Positions 2,873 to 14,539 of a DNA stretch of 64,000 bases are shown one piece after another. Source of the stretch: Thermotoga sp. (GTDB lineage Bacteria > Thermotogota > Thermotogae > Mesoaciditogales > Mesoaciditogaceae); assembly GCA_020722015.1 (NCBI GenBank), contig DYLQ01000008.1, positions 1 through 64,000 on the forward strand. Direction: 5' to 3'. How positions within the stretch are numbered: position 1 is the stretch's first letter; each line of letters starts with the position of its first letter. The translations under genes were made by a program, and so were the position numbers. A model generated the notes under the pieces. The model saw only the letters and a program-made list of their open reading frames with translations. It was not told the DNA's origin and did not search any database.

Positions 2873-4384
2873 TTAAATCAAAGATTTTTGATTTTCGGCA
2901 AATATTTTTTTGTAAAGATCTGAACCATAACTTGTCTGCAAAGGCTCTCCTTCTTTGAGCTTAAAAGGCCTGCTTCCGTCTGTACTCCTTTCGGCCCTCA
3001 GAAAAAGTGCATTATCCATTTTTTGTTTGTAAAAACCATGAGATAATTCGTACATGTGTGTTACGAAAAAGACTTTGATGTTTTTTTCGACAAGTGCCAA
3101 GACTATTTGTTTTGCTATTTCAGATCCTTCTCTTTCATTTGTCGCGGCGAACGATTCGTTGAAAAGTACCATTGAGTTGGATTGGACCAAGTTTGCGATC
3201 TCATCCATCCTTTTTAATTCCTCATCGAACTTACCGCTATCCATTTTTTTATCTTCTTCACGTTTGTAGTGCGTGAATATCCCACTTGAAATGTTTGCCG
3301 TAAATCTTTGTGCCGGTACAAAGATCCCTGCTTGCATCATTAATTGCGCAATGCCTACGCTTCTGAGAAAAGTTGACTTTCCTCCTTGATTTGCACCGGT
3401 TATAAAGACGAGATCTTTTCCATTGGCGTTGATTTCATTTCCAACAATCCTTTCTTCTTTGATGATGGCAAGGGAAATATCGTAGAGATTTTCAAAATCA
3501 TGTACCCGTTCGTTCATCGGCCTCGGCTCAGGAAAACAAATCGGTTCTCCGATTTTGACGATTCGATCGTGAAGATTAAGCACTCCAACGTAAAAGGCCA
3601 ATTCTGTGCGCATCATTTTGAAGAAACTCAAAATATGATCCGTAGACTGAGCAAGAGCGTTCGCAACGGAATTTATTGCCTTGTCCTTTATCTGTCCAAG
3701 GGCTTCGGCACCCCTTTCGTCCCTGTCACTTATCGCAAATGTGTAAGATTCTTCCTTTTTTGAAAAGACTCGATCCAAAAAGTTCCCCCTTTTTTCATCA
3801 GACTTTAAAATCAAATAATCTTTTCCCTTGTTTCCCGTACCCAAACTCACACCGATAAGCATACCATTTTTGAATTCAAGATCTCTGAGATGCTCCTCAA
3901 TAGTTTCAAAATATTCGTCGTTAAGTTCAACCTGAATCATCTTGAAAAAACGTTTGAAACCTTCGGATTCGAATTTGGAAGACTCCTCATCCGCGATCTT
4001 TTTCAATTTTTTCAAAGTGCCGATGAAAAGGTGTAAAAGGTCTATTGAACTGTGCAATATGGCATCCGGATATTTGCTGAAAAAACCAAAATACGTTTTT
4101 TTCTCCTGTCCTATTCCTTCAATGGCTATTGAGTAAAGGTTCCTTACCGTTGCTGAATTTTTCAAGCAATCTTTGATCACATCCTGACGGTAGAGAATCG
4201 TATCCACGTAATTAAGGCTTGAAAGTAAAACCTTTTTTGAAATGTCAAAGATAAACTCATCGCCATTTGACATGACGTTGAATATGGTGTTCAATTCGAG
4301 ATCCTGGACGAGATAATCCGTAAATGAAGGAAGTGAATGTTCCGAATCGAAATCGCGATTTCTGAAAAGTAAAAAAGCTTTCAT
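2873..4384 (-). CDS. MutS-like ATPase, second of a pair
   Basis: A 503-residue protein with a helical core (roughly 60-310) and a C-terminal MutS-type ABC ATPase domain: Walker A TGANQGGKST (329-338), Walker B SMVLFNES (404-411), and FVTHMYE. The Walker B aspartate is Asn (NE instead of DE), as in the upstream paralogue. The mismatch-recognition and connector domains of true MutS (800+ residues) are absent, so it is not a mismatch-repair MutS. Its ATG overlaps the stop of the upstream paralogue (ATGA), implying coupled translation and perhaps a heterodimer. It is under the riboswitch at 5920-5990. Function unknown. Confidence 0.85.
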   Translation of the reverse strand: MKAFLLFRNRDFDSEHSLPSFTDYLVQDLELNTIFNVMSNGDEFIFDISKKVLLSSLNYVDTILYRQDVIKDCLKNSATVRNLYSIAIEGIGQEKKTYFGFFSKYPDAILHSSIDLLHLFIGTLKKLKKIADEESSKFESEGFKRFFKMIQVELNDEYFETIEEHLRDLEFKNGMLIGVSLGTGNKGKDYLILKSDEKRGNFLDRVFSKKEESYTFAISDRDERGAEALGQIKDKAINSVANALAQSTDHILSFFKMMRTELAFYVGVLNLHDRIVKIGEPICFPEPRPMNERVHDFENLYDISLAIIKEERIVGNEINANGKDLVFITGANQGGKSTFLRSVGIAQLMMQAGIFVPAQRFTANISSGIFTHYKREEDKKMDSGKFDEELKRMDEIANLVQSNSMVLFNESFAATNEREGSEIAKQIVLALVEKNIKVFFVTHMYELSHGFYKQKMDNALFLRAERSTDGSRPFKLKEGEPLQTSYGSDLYKKIFAENQKSLI

Positions 4385-5904
4385 GATTTTATCCTTTCTT
4401 TTAAAGATTTGTAAGTCAAACGATACTTCTCAGCTATGGATATGGCATAAGACAATCCATCCGATGGCTTTCTCAAAACCTTGTAAATTCTTACAGATGG
4501 ATTGTTTGGATCTACGGTTCCAACCATACTTACAACTTTTTCATTCATACAGGTTATCTCGTCTATGAATGTAACCCATACGGCCAAAAGATCAAGATCG
4601 TATATAATCGCCATTACCTTTTTGCTCAAGTAAAGCGCATCTTCCAAAGTCGTTGAAGAAAACATCTCGTTCATTATGATTATACTTTTAGAGGTCGCTT
4701 TTTTCAGAATAAGGTTTATCCTGAACAGATCATCTTCGAGTTTCCCGCGGAGATTGTTTATATTTTCTTCTCTTTCAAAGTGCGTAAAGATTTCATCGAA
4801 TAAAAAAAGTTTGGCTTCATTTCCAGGTACGGGGCAACCGATGCTTGCAAGATAATGAAGTTGTCCGAAAGTTCGCGCAAATGTCGTTTTACCGCCTTGG
4901 TTTGGCCCCGTCACAGCGAAAATGCGTTCGTTACCTTTAAGATAAAAATCGTTGGTTACGACTGGCTTTTGATCGTCTGCCAATTTATCGGCAAGCGAAA
5001 GGTCGAAGGTTTTGTTGGCGTAAATCTCCTTGTCCTGTGTGATCTGTGGAATACAAAATTCAAGTCCGTTCCTTTTGAATTTGGATATGTATTCGATGTA
5101 AGAGATGTAAAATTGAATTTCTCTGTCAAAATCGGAGATCATTTCGTTCATGAAATTCGAATTATCAGTGTAATATCTGTCAAGCTTTTCAAAAATATCT
5201 GGATAAAGTAACGCAACAAAATCAAGTATTTTGGCCTCAACGTGGTTCATGTCCGGAAATTCGTTGAATGTAACTGTGTAATCTTTGACGGATCCCTGCC
5301 TGAATTTTTCAAATATTTCCTCTATTTCCTGGCCATAATCTTTTTCGGAGTGATCTCTTTTTACCTTGATCGCATTCCCTTTGACAAACAAAGTATATTT
5401 TATCTGTAGAAGTTCATTTTTTAACGTCTCGGTTTGAGCGATAAGAGACTTAAAATCGTTTGAATCGACGTAATTTTTCAAAAGCTTAAAAAAAGATGTA
5501 AAACCTCTCGATTTCAGTTCAACGGAAAGTGCTTTTTCAAGTTTTTTCACTGCATCACAATAAATTTCAACTCCGTCCAAAAACCATCTTTCTTTCTGGT
5601 ATTTGTATGACAGTTTATCCGATTGCTCAAAAGATCTTCTCACCATACGCATTTTATCTTCGAATTTCAATATGTTTTCAAACAAGTCCTCGTTTTCAAG
5701 ATCTCGCATCACTTCCTGCCTGTATTCTATCGAATCTATATCTTCAAGTTTCGTGTAGAAATATGGTTTCAAGTTGTATTCTTCCTTTTTGGATGTAACG
5801 GAATTCACAATCTGATCGATGTTAAGATCCACAAAAAAATCTGGAATCAGAGCGTTTTTCGCCTTTATTTTGTCATTTTCATTCAAGAAAAGTATGCTGA
5901 ACAT
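4381..5904 (-). CDS. MutS-like ATPase, first of a pair, fluoride-riboswitch controlled
   Basis: A 507-residue protein with a long helical region (60-290) and a C-terminal MutS-family ATPase: Walker A TGPNQGGKTT (332-341), FDEIFTHFEREE (about 369-380), and Walker B SIIIMNEMFSSTT with Asn where MutS has Asp. It lacks MutS domains I-II. The real start is ATG 5904, seven bases after AAGGAGG; the upstream in-frame ATG at 5943 lies inside the riboswitch terminator and is not a start. It is first gene of a two-gene operon. The role in fluoride stress is inferred from the riboswitch only. Confidence 0.87.
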   Translation of the reverse strand: MFSILFLNENDKIKAKNALIPDFFVDLNIDQIVNSVTSKKEEYNLKPYFYTKLEDIDSIEYRQEVMRDLENEDLFENILKFEDKMRMVRRSFEQSDKLSYKYQKERWFLDGVEIYCDAVKKLEKALSVELKSRGFTSFFKLLKNYVDSNDFKSLIAQTETLKNELLQIKYTLFVKGNAIKVKRDHSEKDYGQEIEEIFEKFRQGSVKDYTVTFNEFPDMNHVEAKILDFVALLYPDIFEKLDRYYTDNSNFMNEMISDFDREIQFYISYIEYISKFKRNGLEFCIPQITQDKEIYANKTFDLSLADKLADDQKPVVTNDFYLKGNERIFAVTGPNQGGKTTFARTFGQLHYLASIGCPVPGNEAKLFLFDEIFTHFEREENINNLRGKLEDDLFRINLILKKATSKSIIIMNEMFSSTTLEDALYLSKKVMAIIYDLDLLAVWVTFIDEITCMNEKVVSMVGTVDPNNPSVRIYKVLRKPSDGLSYAISIAEKYRLTYKSLKERIKS

Positions 5905-5919
5905 CTCAAAAACCTCCTT

Positions 5920-5990
5920 AAAAAACAAAATGGCTTCCATCAATAGAAGCCATCAGCCTTCAAGGCGATAAGGGAGCCTCATCCCGTTCC
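5920..5990 (-). ncRNA. fluoride (crcB-type) riboswitch with terminator platform
   Basis: On the minus strand the aptamer runs from about 5985 to 5943: GGGATGAGGCTCCC (stem GGG/CCC, eight-base loop ATGAGGCT), a joining TTATC, hairpin GCC-TTGAA-GGC, then TGATGGCTTCTAT. This follows the Thermotoga petrophila fluoride aptamer layout (GGCGAUGGUGUUCGCC, small hairpin, GAUGRC-type tail). Loop bases GAGGC can pair with GCTTC to form the pseudoknot. GCTTC also lies in the terminator stem ATGGCTTC/GAAGCCAT (5930-5953) followed by TTTGTTTTTT, so ligand binding should prevent termination and switch the MutS-like genes on. No ligand test is possible here. Confidence 0.8.
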
Positions 5991-5991
5991 T

Positions 5992-5997
5992 ATTATA
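5992..5997 (-). promoter_or_regulatory. -10 box of the mutS-like operon
   Basis: TATAAT on the minus strand, ending about seven bases before the first aptamer base. No good -35 is visible (TTTTTC at 6015-6020, 17-base spacer). Confidence 0.6.
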
Positions 5998-6058: not shown

Positions 6059-6062
6059 ATTG

Positions 6063-6132
6063 GCGGTGGCAGTGGAGTTTGCCCAAACAGCTTAACAGCC
6101 GATGACTCCTACCTATTTTCAGGTGGGAGGTG
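6063..6132 (+). ncRNA. fluoride (crcB-type) riboswitch with RBS-sequestering platform
   Basis: Aptamer at about 6068-6113: stem GGCA/TGCC closing loop GTGGAGTT, linker CAAAC, hairpin GCT-TAAC-AGC, then CGATGACTCCTACC. Layout and tail match the fluoride aptamer, with loop GGAGT able to pair perfectly with ACTCC as the pseudoknot. The same CTCCTACCT can instead pair with AGGTGGGAG (6121-6129), burying the ribosome binding site GGGAGG of the TTG start at 6137. Ligand binding should therefore free the site and switch translation on. There is no T-run, so control is likely translational, unlike the divergent copy. Confidence 0.85.
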
Positions 6133-6136
6133 TATT

Positions 6137-7075
6137 TTGTTAGCGTTAAGTGTAATCCAGCTTGTTTATGTACTTGCGTTGGCTCCTCTTATTGCAGGGA
6201 TAATATCTACAATCGAAGAGCGTATTGAATCCAAAAGAGGGCCGAGTATCTTTCAGCCCTACTATGATCTTCTAAAACTTTTCCGAAAGGAAAATGTTAT
6301 TCCCGCAAAATCTTCGCCAATCTTCAGGATAGGTCCTTACGTTACTTTCAGCCTTTACATGCTTTTGACTCTTGTCCTTCCGATAATAACGGCATTCCCT
6401 TTGCAATTTGGACCTGTTGTGGATTTCATAGGAGGGGGGCTTACATTCGGTGCAGCGGCAACTTTTAAAAAGCTCATGGCTTTGGACAGCAGAAGTAATT
6501 ACGCACACCTTGGCACATCAAGATCGGCCAGCATCGGGGCACTATCTGAGCCTATAACCGTTTTGATCTTCATAATGTTGGGTGTCATTTCCAAAACAAA
6601 CAATCCTTACATTATAAACAACGTACTTCAAACTTCCATGACATGGTATCTCTCACTTGTCCATTGGTTCGTCGCAGCGGCATTTTTCATGGTTTTACTT
6701 GTCGAAACTGGGAAACTACCCATAGAATCTCATTCGACTGCTGAGCTCGGTGCGATAGATCAATCGATGGAGATCGAATATTCCGGATCCGATCTTGCAT
6801 TTTTCAAGTGGGGCGGATATGCAAAACAATTCCTTTTGATGAGCGTGTTTTTAAACGTTTACACGGTGCCTTTCTGGGTACCCATGAAAATGAACTTCGA
6901 TTCCGTATTCATCTACATGGGAATTCAACTTTTAAAGTTGGTGGGTCTTGCCATAGTCTTTGCTTTCTTCGAAGAAAGTGTCTCCAAATTCAGACTTCTC
7001 AAAAACTTTGATTACATTGCCGTAGCCTTTTCGATGGCGTTTTTAAGTTTTCTTGTCTTCAGCATCTCGGGGTGA
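6137..7075 (+). CDS. FHL/complex-I-like membrane subunit, HyfC/NuoH type
   Basis: Membrane anchor subunit homologous to HyfC/HycD and complex I NuoH, about 312 residues with eight hydrophobic segments. Family motifs are ESKRGPSIFQPYYDLLKLFRKE (about residues 28-49) and VETGKLPIESHSTAE...MEIEYSGSDLAFF. The start is TTG 6137 with GGGAGG six bases upstream; the longer frame from GTG 6050 runs through the riboswitch and is rejected. In the family this subunit connects the antiporter-like subunits to the hydrophilic arm. It is first gene of a seven-gene operon. Confidence 0.87.
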   Translation: MLALSVIQLVYVLALAPLIAGIISTIEERIESKRGPSIFQPYYDLLKLFRKENVIPAKSSPIFRIGPYVTFSLYMLLTLVLPIITAFPLQFGPVVDFIGGGLTFGAAATFKKLMALDSRSNYAHLGTSRSASIGALSEPITVLIFIMLGVISKTNNPYIINNVLQTSMTWYLSLVHWFVAAAFFMVLLVETGKLPIESHSTAELGAIDQSMEIEYSGSDLAFFKWGGYAKQFLLMSVFLNVYTVPFWVPMKMNFDSVFIYMGIQLLKLVGLAIVFAFFEESVSKFRLLKNFDYIAVAFSMAFLSFLVFSISG

Positions 7076-7079
7076 TTAT

Positions 7080-7715
7080 ATGAATGATTTTTTCATGTTA
7101 ATAGGTTTTTCGGAAATATTGCTTGTGATTTTCATGCAATGGGAAGTGTATGTTGCAAAGATAATTAAGACCTTTTCGATAAGCTCATATGCTGTATCGG
7201 TTTTCTTGCTTTATCTGAGTTTTGTCCAGCATTCGTATCTTGTCCTTATTTTAGCCATATTGACGGCCGTGATAAGAGGATTTTTTATACCTAATTTCAT
7301 TCTGAAAAGGCTTGCAAGAGATCCGTGGAGAGAAAGAGAATCAAAGCCCATTATGGGAACGGCATCTTCGATAATAATCTCTCTTGTGATAGCGATCTTC
7401 GCTTATGTGCTTTACGAGGCAACGATGTTGAATTTCATAGGAGTATTGTCGGGAGCCATTCCGATTGCACTTGTCTTTCAAGGCGCTTTTCTTGTGATCT
7501 CGAGGAGAAACGCCTTTATCCAACTTGTAGGATATATGGTTATGGAAAATGCGGCCTTTTTGTTCACGGGATATCTCTTTCCCGATCTTCCTTTCAGCGT
7601 AGAAGCTGGAACGGTGCTTGATCTTATAGGAGTCGTTATGATTTCGGGAATAATAATGAGGATGAGAGAAAATTCTCCGAAAAAATCAGACGATATCGAT
7701 GAATTGAGGGGATAA
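7080..7715 (+). CDS. FHL-like membrane subunit, HyfE type
   Basis: About 211 residues, strongly hydrophobic with about seven membrane segments, matching HyfE/HycC-type small subunits (NuoK-like part plus extension), including the segment FIPNFILKRLARDPWRERESKPIMGTAS. The start is ATG 7080 behind GGGGTGAT. It is placed between the HyfC-like and HyfF-like genes exactly as in hyf operons. Likely part of the proton-path portion of the membrane arm (family knowledge). Confidence 0.8.
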   Translation: MNDFFMLIGFSEILLVIFMQWEVYVAKIIKTFSISSYAVSVFLLYLSFVQHSYLVLILAILTAVIRGFFIPNFILKRLARDPWRERESKPIMGTASSIIISLVIAIFAYVLYEATMLNFIGVLSGAIPIALVFQGAFLVISRRNAFIQLVGYMVMENAAFLFTGYLFPDLPFSVEAGTVLDLIGVVMISGIIMRMRENSPKKSDDIDELRG

Positions 7716-7717
7716 AT

Positions 7718-9076
7718 ATGGATTTAGTTTACATCTTACCGATGGCAGCAAGTTTGATAGGCGCTTTGCTGTGTCTTGTGAGAATTGAAAAATTTGAAGA
7801 GATAGTTTCAATAATTGTTTCGGTTTGCACGTCAATTTTTGCCGTTTTAATTCTTTTTTCGCCAAATGTCTCAAATTATTTTTTGTTTTTAGATGGCATT
7901 TCAAAGATCATGATTTTGACCATTTCCATCGTTTATGTTATGACCGTTATTTTTTCGACAACTTTTTTTAAGTACATAGATGAACCGCTCTTTCAAAAGA
8001 GATTTTACTATCTGCTTCTCAATCTCTTTGCGTTTTCGATGTTTTTTTCTGTATCGGTAAACAATTTCGGACTTGTGTGGGTTGGGATAGAGGCGACAAC
8101 GGTTACAAGTGCGCTTTTGGTGGCAACGGAAAATGACGAATCATCGATAGAGGCAACGTGGAGGTACATAATAATAGTATCAAGCGGCCTTGTCATTTCT
8201 TTCATAGCCAACATATTGATATATTCCGCAACCGGTACACTTGATATATCCAAATTGTTATCGATGAACTCGTTTTCTGCGTTACTCCCCCTCGGTTCGA
8301 TGATGGCCTTGGTGGGATACGGTACAAAAGCCGGCATTTTTCCCATGCACACATGGCTTCCGGATGTTCACGGCAAAGCCCCGGCTCCGGTAAGCGCGAT
8401 CTTTTCCGGAGTACTGCTCCCTGTAGCACTTTACGCGATGATCAGAGTTATTCAATTTACACCGATAGAGTATGTTAAGACCTTTGCCCTTATATTGGGA
8501 TTTTTAACCGTGATAATCGCTGCAAGCCTTATGGCAGTTCAAACGAATTACAAGAGGCTGTTTGCCTATTCGACAATGGAAAATATGGGGATGGCTTTAA
8601 TCGGAATATCTTTAGGTGGTTATGCGCTCTTAGGTGTTATCATCTTGATACTTTCACATGCGTTTGCGAAATCTTCGACTTTCTTTTTAAGCGGCAATTT
8701 ATTATCAAGGTATAAAACGTTGAAGATCGACGAAGTCAAAGGAGTGGCCGGGCGCATGCCGATCACCGCTTACACTCTTCTTTTCAGTTCAATGGCAATA
8801 ACCGGGATGCCTCCTTTTGGAACTTTTTTCGGAGAGATCATGATAATTTTCGTTTTGCTTTCTGCTGTACACATAGGGTGGGTGTTGTTGCTTATGGCTT
8901 TTTTGGCGCTTGCTTTCATTTCGATGAATTTCAAGGTGGGCAAAATGCTTTTTTCGGATTCGGAAGGAGATAACATGGAGAGAAAGAGAGTCGGTACCAT
9001 CATCCCCGTGATTGATACGATACTGTCTTTGGCCATTGTTTTTTTCATTCCGCTTATAAGTAAGGTGATAAAATGA
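7718..9076 (+). CDS. FHL-like antiporter subunit, HyfF/NuoN type
   Basis: A 452-residue Mrp/NuoN-family subunit with about 13 membrane segments. Ion-translocation residues look kept: acidic residue in VWVGIEATTVTSALLVATEN, and lysine/histidine in GYGTKAGIFPMHTWLPDVHGKAPAPVSAIFSG. Starts at ATG 7718, two bases after the previous stop, and overlaps the next gene by four bases. In relatives this subunit moves protons (or Na+) driven by redox chemistry in the hydrophilic arm, which here seems inactive. Confidence 0.88.
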   Translation: MDLVYILPMAASLIGALLCLVRIEKFEEIVSIIVSVCTSIFAVLILFSPNVSNYFLFLDGISKIMILTISIVYVMTVIFSTTFFKYIDEPLFQKRFYYLLLNLFAFSMFFSVSVNNFGLVWVGIEATTVTSALLVATENDESSIEATWRYIIIVSSGLVISFIANILIYSATGTLDISKLLSMNSFSALLPLGSMMALVGYGTKAGIFPMHTWLPDVHGKAPAPVSAIFSGVLLPVALYAMIRVIQFTPIEYVKTFALILGFLTVIIAASLMAVQTNYKRLFAYSTMENMGMALIGISLGGYALLGVIILILSHAFAKSSTFFLSGNLLSRYKTLKIDEVKGVAGRMPITAYTLLFSSMAITGMPPFGTFFGEIMIIFVLLSAVHIGWVLLLMAFLALAFISMNFKVGKMLFSDSEGDNMERKRVGTIIPVIDTILSLAIVFFIPLISKVIK

Positions 9077-10287
9077 AGATATTGCTCGGGGTTTTTCGTA
9101 AAGATATAAATTATTATGTAGTTCAGGACAATGGGATCGTTTTAACGGAAACAGATCCTGCCGATACGTACCTTCCCAATTATGCTTCAGTCAAATTGCG
9201 CGATATGATGATAAATTCGGATCAATCAGTCAAAGACGGTGACGGTGTCTTCGATTTCAGATATGGTCCTGTCACGAGCGGAGTCGGAGAAGCCGGCATT
9301 TATCATCTTTACACTTACGGAGAAAGAATCCTTTCGGTTAGCATCGATCTGTCTTATAAACACAGAAATATACAAAATCGTATGGTAGGTCTCGATCTCA
9401 AGTCAGGTTTAAAGATGGCGGAAAGCATCTGCGGTAATTTCGCTTTTTCTCATTCTTTGGCATTTTCGAAAGCCGTTGAGTCTGCAATTGGTGTTAACGT
9501 AGATTCAAAAAGTCAAAGGCTCAGAATAATTGCCCTTGAGCTCGAAAGAATCTACAATCATCTTTACGTTATTTATCAACTTGCACAAACCGCCTCTCAA
9601 AAAGTTTTGACATCGCATTTGAGCTATCTTTTTGAAGAAAGTTTAAGGTTAAACAAAAAAATCAGTGGATCGAGATATCTCAAAAATTTCAACGATATCG
9701 GCGGAATTAAAAATTTTGACGAAAAAACTTTGCAAGATTTAAAGACTGATGTTCAAAAAATAGTCAATGAATTCAAAGATCTTTACGAATGGGCACTTGA
9801 AAGCGGGAATTTTTTGGATAGACTTTATTCAACGGCAATTTTAAAATCGTCGGATGCGATGAGTTTAGGGATAACCGGACCGACATTGAGAGCCTCAGGC
9901 ATAAGGGAAGACTTAAGATACAACGATCCGGCGTACGAAAATTTGAACATTCCCATAAAAGAAGAAGGAGATGCGCTTTCAAGAATGGAAGTAAGAGCTG
10001 AAGAGATCTTTGAAAGTCAAAGGATAATCTTTAATCAGATAGAAAATTTCGATGCGGAGATTAACGCAGAAACAACCGAAAAAGGTTTTGGATATTGCGA
10101 ATCGCCAAGCGGTACGATGGTATATAAAATTGATTTGGAAAGTCAAAACATTTCAGATGTGTATATCGCAACTCCGTCTCTTTTTGCTTTCAAAGGAATT
10201 GCAAACTCGCTGGTAGGCAACATCTTTACGGACTTTCAGTTTGCAGTTGAATCTTTCGGAGTAAATTTTGCGGATGCCGCACTTTGA
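9073..10287 (+). CDS. degenerate hydrogenase-3/4-like large subunit (HycE/NuoD type) without Ni ligands
   Basis: A 404-residue homologue of HycE/HyfG/NuoD. Recognisable blocks are GPVTSGVGEAGIYHLYTYGE (65-84), HRNIQ, AESICGNFAFSHSLAFSKAVE (116-136), ALELERIYNHLYVIYQLA and GYCESPSGTM. Group 4 NiFe hydrogenases have CGxC at the third block; here it is C120-G-N-F123. The C-terminal DPCxxC is absent: the end reads FAVESFGVNFADAAL. Three of four Ni-binding cysteines are therefore missing. The N-terminal NuoC-like domain of HycE is also lacking. The protein probably keeps a structural or coupling role (inference). Confidence 0.82.
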   Translation: MKILLGVFRKDINYYVVQDNGIVLTETDPADTYLPNYASVKLRDMMINSDQSVKDGDGVFDFRYGPVTSGVGEAGIYHLYTYGERILSVSIDLSYKHRNIQNRMVGLDLKSGLKMAESICGNFAFSHSLAFSKAVESAIGVNVDSKSQRLRIIALELERIYNHLYVIYQLAQTASQKVLTSHLSYLFEESLRLNKKISGSRYLKNFNDIGGIKNFDEKTLQDLKTDVQKIVNEFKDLYEWALESGNFLDRLYSTAILKSSDAMSLGITGPTLRASGIREDLRYNDPAYENLNIPIKEEGDALSRMEVRAEEIFESQRIIFNQIENFDAEINAETTEKGFGYCESPSGTMVYKIDLESQNISDVYIATPSLFAFKGIANSLVGNIFTDFQFAVESFGVNFADAAL

Positions 10288-10297
10288 GGTGATAAGA

Positions 10298-10735
10298 ATG
10301 AAATGGTGGCCCACAAAAGGAATGAAAAGATTTTTGACGGAAATGGACAATTATCCATCAAAGGCGACGGTAAAATCGATGAATATTTTCAAAAGATCGA
10401 TACACATCTACACGATAGATGTCGGCAATTCGAATTTGCTCAATTTTGAAATAAAAGCACTTCAAAGCGCTCAGTATAACACTCACAGGTTTGGAATATA
10501 TTTTGCCGATTCGCCGAGGCATGCCGATCTTCTTATCGTACTTGGAAGCCCTACAAAAAATATGATTGAGCCTTTGATGAACACCATAGAACAAATGCCC
10601 AAGCCATTTGGAATTTTAATTGTCGAAGAAAACGATGAGATGGATCTGGAGCTGCCGAATGTCGTTGGACGGCTGAAAAATCCAGAGCCTTCCGATATTT
10701 TAGGCGCAATTTTGAAGATCATGGAAAGGAATTGA
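10298..10735 (+). CDS. degenerate hydrogenase-like small subunit (HycG/NuoB type) without cysteines
   Basis: A 145-residue homologue of HycG/HyfI/NuoB. The framework is clear: SIHIYTIDVGNSNLLNFEIKAL aligns with the SIHIYHVDCGSCNGCDIE-type motif, and RFGIYFADSPRHADLLIVLGSPTKNM with the following conserved block. Every cysteine that would bind the proximal 4Fe-4S cluster is replaced, and the whole protein contains no cysteine. It cannot carry an Fe-S cluster. Start ATG 10298 has GAGGTGATAAGA upstream; the longer frame from 10268 overlaps the previous gene and lacks a site. Confidence 0.82.
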   Translation: MKWWPTKGMKRFLTEMDNYPSKATVKSMNIFKRSIHIYTIDVGNSNLLNFEIKALQSAQYNTHRFGIYFADSPRHADLLIVLGSPTKNMIEPLMNTIEQMPKPFGILIVEENDEMDLELPNVVGRLKNPEPSDILGAILKIMERN

Positions 10736-12624
10736 TGATCATGTGCTTTGCATACACGGCACTTATTCTTTATTTTTTCGGAGTAGTTTTTTCTTTTAAA
10801 AGATGGATTTCCTACACGTTAGCGTCGATTGGCGCTGCCTTTGCGCTGGTAGGCGGTATAGTCGGAACTTTTTATCCTTTCACGCTCGGAAATATGGAGC
10901 TTTTGCCAAAGATATACATGTCGCTCGGAGTCAACCACACATCGGGAATTTTCATGACCATAGCCGCAATATCATGGATAGCGATATCCATATATTCGAT
11001 CGATTACGGTAAATTTTACTCAAAAGATATGGGACTGTGGTTAAATCTTTCATTTTTGGGAATGATGATCATTTTGATGGCCGGAGACGGTCTTACCTTT
11101 ATAACGGGATGGGAGATAATGACAGTTTCATCTTATCTTCTCATTCTCAAACACAAAGGTGCTTTCAAAGAAGCCTTTGAATTCTTGGCATTCGGAGAGT
11201 TATCGACTGTCAGTTTGATAATAGCCTTTGCATCTTTATTTTTAAAGAACGGAAATTTTTCATTCACACAAAACTCTGGTACTGTGATATTTCTGATCAT
11301 GTCAACATTTGCCTTCGCTGTCAAAATGGGTATATTTCCGTTTCACACATGGCTTATAGGTGCGCATGCAAAAGCGCCATCAAACGTTTCGGCACTTTTA
11401 AGTGCTCCTCTTACTTTGATGGGAGTTTACGGTATTTTCATGGCACTTTCCATAATGCCGAATTTGCATCTGTACAATTTTCAGTGGTGGGGAATACTCG
11501 CCATCATTTTCGGTGCCATGTCCGCTTTTTGGGGCGCTCTTCACGCCGTTGCGACAAAGCAATTGAAAACTCTGCCTGCTTATTCGACGATTGAGAATAA
11601 CGGAATGATTTTAGCCGCAATAGGAATATCCGTGATGGCAAGTGCGGATCCTAATCTCGCGATCATGTCTGAATTCGCTTTGATAACCGCAATTATGCTT
11701 GCCATATCACATACGTTTTCGAAATCTTTACTTTTCCTTTCCGTAGGCCATGTAAAGGAAGCTTTGAATGAAGACAACATAGACGATCTGCGTGGCGCAT
11801 GGAGCGCCGTCGGAAAGATCCCCGCGTTGGGAATATTGATCTCAGGCCTTTCTTTCAGCGCATTTCCGCCGCTTGCAGGCTTTGTAGGTGAATGGATGCT
11901 GTTGGAATCTTTCTTCCAATCTTACAAGTTTTCTGATATTATCACTCGCCTTGTGGCAACTTTTGCAGGCATATTTGTCGCTTTGGCAATAGGCATGGCG
12001 GCATTTTCAATGGTAAAGCTTGCCGGATACACAGCCTTGGGATACGATCACGGAAAAAAAGCCAAACGTATGCCATCTACCTTGATGAAGGTATCAGAGC
12101 TTTTTCTCGCAATTCTTGTCTTCGGATTTGGAATTTTTGCCACTTTTGTTTTAAGATACTTTGGGTATTCGCAATTCACATCCGGACTGTTTGGCGTACC
12201 GTCTCCGTTTTTGATGATTTCATCTGTACCGATCTTCGGAGTGGTTTCTCCGATGTTCTTTGCAATTGTAACTTCTGTTCTGTTTCTTTTTCCACTGGCT
12301 TTTTATCTTACAAAAAATAAGGTAAGGCGCGTTAATTCCTGGAACGGAGGATTGCCGATTGAAGAAGGCGAGTATTTTACGGCTCAAGCTTATTCGTCGA
12401 TAATAGAGATCGTATTCAAGAAAATATACATCACAAAAGAAAAACGTTCGGCCGATGAGGCTCACATAGAATTTGTCGATGTGATAAGTGTATTTTACGA
12501 TGCCCTAAAAGGCACAATTTTGAAAATCGAAAATGTGCTTTCGAATACACTGATGAATGGAAACATCAACGCGTACGTGGCATACATATTTGCCGTATTG
12601 GTTTTGATCTTCATATTGAGGTGA
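10735..12624 (+). CDS. FHL-like antiporter subunit, HyfB/NuoL type
   Basis: About 629 residues, about 16 membrane segments, member of the NuoL/HyfB/MrpA family. Conserved ion-path residues are visible in TGWEIMTVSSYLLILKHKG (Glu) and AVKMGIFPFHTWLIGAHAKAPSNVSALLSAPLTLMGVYG (Lys/His). The C-terminal part (about 500-630) has NSWNGGLPIEEGEYFTAQAYSSIIEIVFK, typical of HyfB/HycC. Starts at ATG 10735 overlapping the previous stop. With the HyfF-like protein it gives the complex two antiporter-type channels. Confidence 0.88.
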   Translation: MIMCFAYTALILYFFGVVFSFKRWISYTLASIGAAFALVGGIVGTFYPFTLGNMELLPKIYMSLGVNHTSGIFMTIAAISWIAISIYSIDYGKFYSKDMGLWLNLSFLGMMIILMAGDGLTFITGWEIMTVSSYLLILKHKGAFKEAFEFLAFGELSTVSLIIAFASLFLKNGNFSFTQNSGTVIFLIMSTFAFAVKMGIFPFHTWLIGAHAKAPSNVSALLSAPLTLMGVYGIFMALSIMPNLHLYNFQWWGILAIIFGAMSAFWGALHAVATKQLKTLPAYSTIENNGMILAAIGISVMASADPNLAIMSEFALITAIMLAISHTFSKSLLFLSVGHVKEALNEDNIDDLRGAWSAVGKIPALGILISGLSFSAFPPLAGFVGEWMLLESFFQSYKFSDIITRLVATFAGIFVALAIGMAAFSMVKLAGYTALGYDHGKKAKRMPSTLMKVSELFLAILVFGFGIFATFVLRYFGYSQFTSGLFGVPSPFLMISSVPIFGVVSPMFFAIVTSVLFLFPLAFYLTKNKVRRVNSWNGGLPIEEGEYFTAQAYSSIIEIVFKKIYITKEKRSADEAHIEFVDVISVFYDALKGTILKIENVLSNTLMNGNINAYVAYIFAVLVLIFILR

Positions 12625-12629
12625 GATAA

Positions 12630-13265
12630 ATGAAAAAATCAGTTGAATCGGGATATTTACTCGGTAAAATAGATGAACTTCTCGACAGGGTGGGTTGTCC
12701 AATATGCGAACTTACATTTGAAAGTGTCGATGACAACATAGACACACTTTTTTATGAAAATGTCAACGATCCGTCGGAGAGGGAAAAATTTTCAGCCGGT
12801 CCGGGCTTTTGTCCCAAGCACTTAAAAATGGTTGAAGAACATTTGAAAATGCACCCGGAACTCGGCATACTTGGGGTATCGGTGCTTTACGGCACGCTTG
12901 ATGACGATTTGAAACGTGCGTTGAACGATGAATCTGTGAACTTTGGTGTAAGATGTCAATTATGCGATGATGAAGCGGATGCCGAAAAAAGATATTCAGA
13001 TCTTTTCATTCAGTACATTTCAAATGAAGACAGGATTAAAAAATACGAGAACTCGATATCAACTGTGTGTTTGAAACATACGCGCGATTTACTCAAGAAC
13101 TCGAATGTGAACTCTAATTTTAAGGGTATTCAGGAGATCAAAATAGAAAGAACCTTGAATTCATTGAAGGAATTCATAAGAAAAAATGACTACAGATATT
13201 CAAAAGAACCGGTTACGATCATGGAAGGTGAAGCATGGAAAGTGATATCCAAATTTTTGTATTGA
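12630..13265 (+). CDS. DUF6062 family protein, probable metal-binding
   Basis: A 211-residue soluble protein I recognise as DUF6062-like. It has two similar halves, each with a CxxC and a CxKH motif: VGCPICEL and GFCPKHLKM in the first, RCQLCDDE and TVCLKHTRDL in the second. This spacing suggests two zinc or metal sites. It lies five bases after the HyfB-like gene with its own GGTGAGAT site, so it belongs to the riboswitch-controlled operon. Function unknown. Confidence 0.75.
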   Translation: MKKSVESGYLLGKIDELLDRVGCPICELTFESVDDNIDTLFYENVNDPSEREKFSAGPGFCPKHLKMVEEHLKMHPELGILGVSVLYGTLDDDLKRALNDESVNFGVRCQLCDDEADAEKRYSDLFIQYISNEDRIKKYENSISTVCLKHTRDLLKNSNVNSNFKGIQEIKIERTLNSLKEFIRKNDYRYSKEPVTIMEGEAWKVISKFLY

Positions 13266-13290: not shown

Positions 13291-13322
13291 TCATTCTCGA
13301 TAAATTCAATTTGGAGGTAATC

Positions 13323-13706
13323 ATGTTAGATAAAGATTTGAAGGAAAAGATTGATGAAGTTTCTTCTTTTGTAAACGACAGCGAGATATATGACTATTCG
13401 AGTCCCGAAATTGTTTGGGATGATGAAATCGGCTATTCTATTGAGGAAGAAGATACTGTACTCGAAGATCTCGTCTGGGGAGGCATGACGGAATCAGAGG
13501 CAAAAACTATTCTAAAAGAGTACAAAGAGCGTCTTCAAAAAGCTTCTGGCATTGTCAAACAACTCATAAAGGATGGAACCATAACTTCCGAAGATGAAAT
13601 ATGGGACTACGTTGACGAAGAAGGAGACGAAGATTATTACGAAGATGAAGATGAAGAAGATGAAGAAGAGGAAGAAGAAGACGATGACGATGACGAAGAA
13701 AGATGA
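13323..13706 (+). CDS. small acidic protein with Asp/Glu tail
   Basis: A 127-residue protein of unknown function starting at ATG 13323, five bases after GGAGG. The first 95 residues are mixed helical. The last ~30 are almost only Asp and Glu, encoded by a GAA/GAT/GAC triplet run. RNA-polymerase delta-like proteins share the acidic tail, but I see no clear similarity in the N-terminal part. The 3' 70 bases overlap the convergent EamA gene, whose antisense frame reads the triplet run as serine. It has its own strong promoter. Confidence 0.72.
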   Translation: MLDKDLKEKIDEVSSFVNDSEIYDYSSPEIVWDDEIGYSIEEEDTVLEDLVWGGMTESEAKTILKEYKERLQKASGIVKQLIKDGTITSEDEIWDYVDEEGDEDYYEDEDEEDEEEEEEDDDDDEER

Positions 13707-14539
13707 AATAATTGAGCCCATATTGCGGCAAAAGTTATCATGACAAAACCGATGATCTCTGTTTTTGAGAAAGTTGATTTAAGCATTATAACGGAAAATA
13801 CGGTAGCCATGACAGGTTCTCCAGCGTAAATGAATGAAGATGAAACAGTTCCTATTTTCTTTTGATATTTTGCCTGTATGATGATGCCTATGATACTTGC
13901 CACAATTGCCATGTAAATGATAAAAGCAACGTCCGGAAGATTCCAACTGTCATGATAACTTGAGAAAGCGTAAAATGGGATATTTGCAACTGTTATGATC
14001 AAAAATTGGTAGAAGGTAAGTGTAATCTCCTTACCTTCATGTTTTTTTGTTAAAATTGTCATCAAAAGTACCTGAAACGCGAAAGAGATGGCACATAAAA
14101 AAGTTAAAAAGTCTCCGAAATTCATATCAAATTTACTTCCCGAAAGTTCTATCATGTATATACCTACTGAAGCGATTATCAAAGCGAGAATTGTATGAAA
14201 ACTGACTTTGGTCTTTTCGAATATAAATGACAAGATAACTGCAAACACAACGTACATGGACGTTATAAAACTACTTTTTGCAGGTGTTGTGTAAACAAGT
14301 CCCCATGTTTGAAAAACAAAACCGGCTCCCATAGATATACCGATCATAAGACCGGCTTTCCATATACTGAAAAAATCACGTTTTATGGATGGGAAAAATA
14401 TGATCAATATTACGACGTCAGCGATTAGGAATCTGACAAGATTAAGGGTGAAAGGAGAAATACTTTCAAGCATGATCTTTTCTATTGGAAAGGTTGTTCC
14501 CCAAACGATAACAAGTAAGGAAAGTAGAAATACCGCCAT
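13637..14539 (-). CDS. EamA/DMT family transporter with poly-serine tail
   Basis: Ten-segment drug/metabolite transporter of the EamA family (two repeats: VIVWGTTFPIEKIMLESISPFTLNLVRF and the second half from about residue 145), 300 residues from ATG 14539. The C-terminus after ...AAIWAQLFHL is a run of 20 serines, produced by reading through the antisense of the neighbouring gene's Asp/Glu tract. Upstream of ATG 14539 there is no good ribosome site; GGAGG at 14572-14576 sits eight bases before an in-frame ATA (14563), which would add MEKTQSKF. An AUA start is therefore possible. Substrate unknown. Confidence 0.85.
   Translation of the reverse strand: MAVFLLSLLVIVWGTTFPIEKIMLESISPFTLNLVRFLIADVVILIIFFPSIKRDFFSIWKAGLMIGISMGAGFVFQTWGLVYTTPAKSSFITSMYVVFAVILSFIFEKTKVSFHTILALIIASVGIYMIELSGSKFDMNFGDFLTFLCAISFAFQVLLMTILTKKHEGKEITLTFYQFLIITVANIPFYAFSSYHDSWNLPDVAFIIYMAIVASIIGIIIQAKYQKKIGTVSSSFIYAGEPVMATVFSVIMLKSTFSKTEIIGFVMITFAAIWAQLFHLSSSSSSSSSSSSSSSSSSSS

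Follow-up and report, generated by a model that had tools for sequence, protein, structure and literature searches.

Introduction

Relatives of complex I are understood as redox-driven pumps, and in the large subunit of the group 4 [NiFe] hydrogenases the NiFe site is bound by two CxxC motifs. For the energy-converting hydrogenase-related (Ehr) complexes, which judging by sequence are the closest known kind to the complex described here, missing NiFe ligands are a known hallmark (PMC6349859, PMC10284858). In 2010 Weinberg et al. reported that mutS and formate hydrogen lyase genes are among those that follow the fluoride riboswitch RNA (PMC2864571), and a review from 2024 took the riboswitch-linked formate hydrogen lyase genes as a case of formate oxidation, with Na+/H+ antiporters as the second commonest class linked to the riboswitch (PMC11139923).

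We analysed a stretch of 64,000 nt (the window) from a Thermotogota genome of 1.93 Mb, belonging to the genus Athalassotoga of the family Mesoaciditogaceae, whose members are acid-loving bacteria of hot springs; both neighbour classes from the 2010 list, mutS and formate hydrogen lyase-like genes, occur at the same locus. A natural, selected and cofactor-free version of a complex I relative would reveal the role of the arm and the membrane parts without electrons, a question that is usually tackled by mutation.

The operon

The operon has the order hyfC, hyfE, hyfF, hycE, hycG, hyfB (6137-12624), followed by a DUF6062 gene (12630-13265), and neighbouring genes nearly abut or overlap by 4 nt (spacing about -4 to +5 nt).

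6137..7075, + strand: HyfC/NuoH-like membrane subunit, TTG start (PF00146, E 3e-28; FHL HycD chain 7z0s_D, E 2e-34)
7080..7715, + strand: HyfE-like membrane subunit (hydrogenase 4 membrane subunit, E 2e-11, under the NCBIfam cut-off)
7718..9076, + strand: HyfF-like antiporter-type subunit (PF00361, E 9e-52; NF005042, 421 bits against a cut-off of 437)
9073..10287, + strand: HycE/NuoD-like large subunit without [NiFe] ligands (profile match to MbhL 6cfw_L, E 1.6e-56)
10298..10735, + strand: HycG/NuoB-like small subunit with zero Cys, likely ATG start at 10298 (profile match to MbhJ 6cfw_J, E 8e-14)
10732..12624, + strand: HyfB-like antiporter-type subunit (PF00361, E 8e-33; FHL HycC 7z0s_C, E 1e-34)
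12630..13265, + strand: DUF6062 protein (PF19538, E 2e-15)

Open reading frames and family searches agree with the six subunits and the gene order given in a first-pass annotation of this DNA. Taken alone, hyfE and hycG score below the curated cut-offs of the family searches, but the identity of hycG is secured by its profile match to the Pyrococcus hydrogenase subunit MbhJ and by its predicted fold (pLDDT 80), for which 6cfw_J was also the best Foldseek match. The HycE-like protein is without the N-terminal NuoC-like part that is present in most relatives. A family search of the open reading frames revealed no ferredoxin-type (HycB/HycF) or formate dehydrogenase gene within or adjoining the operon, as had been annotated, and no MrpE/F/G-like genes were seen in it. 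An acidic low-complexity tail with an Asp/Glu run at 13311-13706 overlaps a transporter-like reading frame on the opposite strand, 13637-14539(-), which ends in a serine run.

Fluoride riboswitches and their regulon

6059..6118, + strand: fluoride riboswitch aptamer RF01734, preceding the hyf-like operon (40.3 bits against a cut-off of 34, covariance model)
6106..6131, + strand: expression platform, a 9-bp hairpin CUCCUACCU/AGGUGGGAG in the MFE fold
5937..5994, - strand: second, divergent fluoride riboswitch (25.5 bits, E 5e-5), overlooked in the first-pass annotation
4381..5904, - strand: MutS domain V-type ATPase a, likely ATG start at 5904 (PF00488, E 1e-20)
2873..4384, - strand: MutS domain V-type ATPase b (PF00488, E 1e-22)

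The strand CUCCUACCU of the hairpin is part of the 3' strand of the aptamer, and AGGUGGGAG overlaps the Shine-Dalgarno sequence GGGAGGUG. An equivalent pairing that covers the Shine-Dalgarno sequence was found in other orthologues of the family, with a U-run of at least 6 as well in 5/8, and the riboswitch is predicted to be an ON switch that works via translation or attenuation. All eight family operons that could be tested, that is those whose contig extends far enough upstream, have a fluoride riboswitch 19-23 nt ahead of hyfC, above the curated cut-off in seven of them; the one in the window ends 18 nt before the gene. As there are just one to four riboswitch matches per 2 Mb genome, chance is no sensible explanation of this pairing. 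The fluoride control that had been put forward for the window is, as predicted from these RNA matches, shared family-wide.

After the second riboswitch comes a hairpin that resembles a terminator, GAUGGCUUC...GAAGCCAUU, with a U-run. This riboswitch precedes the pair of MutS-like genes (2873-5904(-)), which show a weak similarity to the KamC reactivase ATPase. A riboswitch was also found ahead of the orthologous MutS-like gene in five genomes (G010, G011, G012, G014 and G016), and in several other Thermotogota a fluoride riboswitch also precedes the orthologue of ATPase a, so that by its sequence context we count ATPase a as a member of the same fluoride regulon as the hyf-like operon. The loci with such MutS-type genes under fluoride riboswitches include L170, L172, L175-L177, L179 and L180.

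DUF6062 has two CxxC...CxxH sites (C23, C26, C61, H64 and C109, C112, C147, H150), both invariant. Its predicted model is all-helical and confident (pLDDT 85), and a structure search with it gave no match in the PDB. It is the first gene after fluoride riboswitches in several Thermotogota families (L163, L164, L166, L168, L171, L174, L178, L181, L182 and others), and it occurs without the complex, and also under a riboswitch of its own where the complex is elsewhere in the genome. DUF6062 is probably a gene of the fluoride regulon and not a subunit of the complex. The genes under fluoride riboswitches in Mesoaciditogaceae are, besides the complex, MutS-like ATPases, a MoxR/DUF58-type operon and DUF6062; all through the family, the MoxR-type AAA ATPase operon has a fluoride riboswitch ahead of it (L002 on contig C46 of the window's own genome; L057, L058, L065, L068, L070-L074). 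In other Thermotogota, antiporter-like transporters are found downstream of riboswitches of this class.

Loss of the redox centres

Alignment with relatives confirms that the HycE-like protein of the window has C-G-N-F for CGxC and no C-terminal DPCxxC, the two places reading ICGNF and ESFGVNFADAA, and only two scattered Cys are present in the protein. All HycE orthologues of the family have (C/S)GNF at the first place, and NF, then A or S, then Asp at the second. The HycG-like protein of the window is, as annotated, without any Cys. Where the first two N2 ligands should be, every family orthologue reads GNSN, apart from that of genome G016 (GNCN). The third and fourth ligands are still present in the sister genera, within KGC and GC, and have been lost in the window's genus. 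This leaves two HycG Cys in the sister genera and three candidate ligands in G016, fewer in each case than the normal four-Cys [4Fe-4S] site; that site and the [NiFe] ligands are absent in all family orthologues. The complex was described from the window as having no redox centres, which is strictly true of the window's genus, but the sister genera with their remaining HycG Cys do not fit such a strict wording.

Other changes found only in this clade are at near-invariant hydrogenase/Ehr positions of HycE (His to Thr68, Asp to Ala403) and in HyfC (Asp197Glu, Pro199His, His208Asp, Glu209Gln), where the clade-specific residues are E28, E197, H199, D208, Q209 and E280. The HycE His/Asp and the HyfC His/Glu are kept in 94-100% of relatives and replaced in the family. 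The altered loops of HycE and HyfC, placed by alignment, are what we take to be the lining of the cavity between cluster and membrane in complex I/FHL. With these residues replaced, one would not expect a quinone or hydrogenase site of the ordinary kind, and the first reading of the complex as something other than a hydrogenase is upheld by the loss of the NiFe and N2 ligands and of the nearby cavity residues.

An ordinary formate hydrogenlyase that shifts metabolism under fluoride would agree with the sequence family and with the published label (PMC2864571, PMC11139923), but a complex that has no NiFe ligands, N2 ligands, HycB/HycF or formate dehydrogenase is most improbably of that kind. 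At the window locus a formate hydrogenlyase is refuted by the missing ligands. The complex could also still be a redox enzyme whose electrons come from an unusual cofactor or from a subunit whose gene lies elsewhere. The two HycG Cys of the sister genera, the three of G016 and the two CxxC/CxxH sites of the DUF6062 protein speak for such an enzyme. We nevertheless consider it unlikely, as HycG of the window's genus is without N2 ligands, the cavity residues are gone, there is no electron-input subunit in the operon, and DUF6062 occurs without the complex or under a separate riboswitch.

The ion path

With transmembrane (TM) numbers assigned by homology, the antiporter-type subunits keep most residues of the ion path, in HyfF E125, K204, H211, K279, H314, K318 and E373, and in HyfB E128, K198, H205, K279, H327, K331 and E387. 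The TM5 Glu, TM7 Lys, TM11 His/Lys and TM12 Glu are present in every HyfF/HyfB orthologue, and HyfE keeps E156, E175 and D181. HyfF, like that of most relatives, has no TM8 Lys; in HyfB, where about 90% of relatives have this Lys, the position is Leu229 in 9/9 orthologues. The first-pass annotation stated that the charged membrane residues are retained, and this is right for the residues listed for HyfF and HyfB, but not for the TM8 Lys of HyfB. There are also clade-specific charge changes in HyfC, HyfE and HyfB.

Distribution and selection in the family

The complex is present in 9/10 genomes of Mesoaciditogaceae (Thermotogota). Athalassotoga saccharophila, of the same genus as the window, has neither the complex nor the MutS-like gene, and retains one fluoride riboswitch, ahead of a MoxR-type ATPase; strain NAS-01 of this species is an anaerobic thermoacidophile (PMC7163026). 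The dN/dS ratio is 0.03-0.16 for all six subunits, with 0.09-0.16 for HycE and about 0.10 for HycG (Nei-Gojobori, including an unsaturated pair), and since all six are under purifying selection the complex is in use and not decaying. In the HycE tree the stem branch of the family is very long, at 2.34 changes per column, and its sister group is uncertain. Such a branch could be that of a decaying remnant without function, but with the low dN/dS ratio and with the six genes and the riboswitch intact this is scarcely credible.

That HycE and HycG are under selection although they have no catalytic site means that the cap must have some role, and their retention suggests that it is structural or regulatory. 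One may think of a gated leak or a conformational sensor, in which the binding of a small ligand to the arm would open or close the membrane part, but no ligand site has been identified and we find it an improbable solution.

Relatives elsewhere

A scan of genome contigs gave at least 80 homologous loci, and 79 of those listed are at about 30% identity. Loss of the NiFe ligands is common among the matches listed, and most of them keep the four N2 Cys. Loss of N2 has arisen at least three times independently, including this family, the other losses being in Methanosarcina/Altiarchaeales/Micrarchaeota and in Candidate Phyla bacteria, and these others are without fluoride control. Our literature search found no description of an Ehr without N2 ligands. 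Among 399 genomes of Bacillota there was no complex of the same type; the best identity was 33%, and the legible motifs of the best loci keep the cluster Cys.

Two Ehr-like operons from Candidate Phyla (Magasanikbacteria and Daviesbacteria; L119 and L121) are without both NiFe and N2 ligands and lie beside genes for F-type ATP synthase. Such neighbours would fit a complex that couples ions and transfers no electrons, and by their sequence these operons likely encode another redox-free ion-coupling complex. The archaeal Ehr-like complexes (L096 and L149 from Methanosarcina; L130, L101 and L080) have Asp, Asn, Thr or other residues for the N2 Cys (GSDNSTE, GDDAC, GNPP). A Chloroflexi locus (L089) keeps the NiFe motifs and has GSDNSC/GDEAC/GDPP at the N2 ligands, with Asp for Cys at several positions.

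None of the 26 Ehr/Hyf-type homologous loci that were scanned has a fluoride riboswitch, which rules out a general link between Ehr and fluoride, and there is none near the Methanosarcina Ehr that also lacks the N2 Cys. The genes that could be read downstream of the riboswitches in the genomes of the homologues were CrcB, antiporter-like transporters, enolase, universal stress protein and dynamin-like GTPases, never Ehr. In the sample scanned, fluoride control is a trait of Mesoaciditogaceae. As homologues without N2 elsewhere have no riboswitch, the loss of ligands is independent of fluoride control; the idea that ligand-poor homologues are preceded by a fluoride riboswitch is true of every testable operon in the family, and of none examined outside it.

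Search for fluoride exporters in the family

Fluc/CrcB (PF02537) was found in 0/10 Mesoaciditogaceae genomes. The CLC-F proteins are recognised by the signatures GREGT/V and GNNLI/GMGLI or GEVTP (PMC11139923), and the single CLC of each of the 10 family genomes has GREGP and no CLC-F signature. CrcB is present in 43/93 other Thermotogota and absent in 50/93, and since about half of them are without it, its absence in the family proves little. The complex is nonetheless a candidate for the missing fluoride-coping function in a family where no Fluc or CLC-F was found, and a concrete one for acidic pH.

The complex itself might export fluoride, as F- or HF coupled to H+ or Na+, and so replace Fluc/CLC-F. 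This would fit with the riboswitch in all testable operons, with the missing Fluc/CrcB and CLC-F signatures and with the clade-specific charge changes in the membrane subunits. The conserved path is, however, that of H+/cation machines, A. saccharophila has neither the complex nor CrcB, and 50/93 other Thermotogota also do without CrcB, and we regard fluoride export as a minority possibility. A bolder version, to which we give even less credence, is that a complex I-type machine has turned into a redox-free and fluoride-induced primary F-/HF exporter, which would be a third kind of exporter and the first relative of complex I in full build without electron transfer.

A proposed function

Without electrons, such a complex is limited to the exchange, leakage or gating of ions. 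A Mrp-like exchanger is the most parsimonious of these, because the residues that it retains belong to H+/cation paths and because Na+/H+ antiporters are linked to the riboswitch in other bacteria (PMC11139923). We hypothesize, at about even chances, that the complex is an Ehr-derived, redox-free and Mrp-like secondary H+/cation exchanger that is induced by fluoride and restores pH or membrane energetics. Fluoride, entering as HF, would accumulate as F-, the riboswitch would free the ribosome site and the complex would be made. The membrane arm, built from HyfB, HyfF, HyfE and HyfC, would conduct ions and act as the secondary H+/cation exchanger, HycE and HycG would be its cap, with a structural or regulatory role, and the exchange of ions would restore cytoplasmic pH or membrane energetics. 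While the riboswitch, the operon, the loss of ligands, the largely conserved ion path and the selection are read from the sequence, we infer the assembly of the complex, the mode of exchange, the ion and the physiological benefit. Against the exchanger it can be said that the loss of the TM8 Lys in HyfB alters the channel, that a pure antiporter has no obvious need of HycE/HycG, which Mrp does without, and that A. saccharophila of the same genus lacks the complex. The findings also suggest that at least some of the riboswitch-tied "formate hydrogen lyase" genes known since 2010 are something other than a means of formate oxidation.

Comparison with known systems

The system had been called mechanistically new, a claim that is tempered by two earlier findings: the loss of NiFe ligands is known from Ehr, and the link of the riboswitch to formate hydrogen lyase genes was published in 2010. 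The Ehr complexes, found in many phyla, have the same set of subunits and likewise no NiFe ligands. In typical Ehr the four N2 Cys are present, as are the HycE His and Asp, the HyfC His/Glu and the HyfB TM8 Lys, and all of these are changed in the family. Ehr are presumed to couple a cytoplasmic redox reaction to ion transport; the complex of the window's genus appears to have no redox ligands left. A Mbx/Mbs-type complex in the same genome (contig C19) is also related to group 4 and has incomplete NiFe motifs, but its HycG-type subunit keeps the Cys motifs (L044) and it has no link to fluoride.

FHL/hydrogenase 4 has a homologous membrane arm and peripheral pair, and FHL chains are among the best structural sequence matches, but it has a NiFe site, FeS cluster ligands, HycB/HycF and FDH-H, all of which are missing here. 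Fluc, CLC-F and the riboswitch-controlled Na+/H+ antiporters share the riboswitch class, although the proteins are unrelated to the family complex. The multisubunit cation/H+ antiporter Mrp has homologous antiporter-type subunits and no redox centres, but MrpA-G include no homologues of NuoB/D/H, whereas the family complex has HyfC, HycE and HycG. The ion path of Mrp is marked by a TM5 Glu, a TM7 Lys and Lys/His in TM8 and TM12; HyfF and HyfB keep their TM5, TM7, TM11 and TM12 residues and have no TM8 Lys. The proposed exchanger would be functionally like Mrp, or like the riboswitch-controlled Na+/H+ antiporters of other bacteria.
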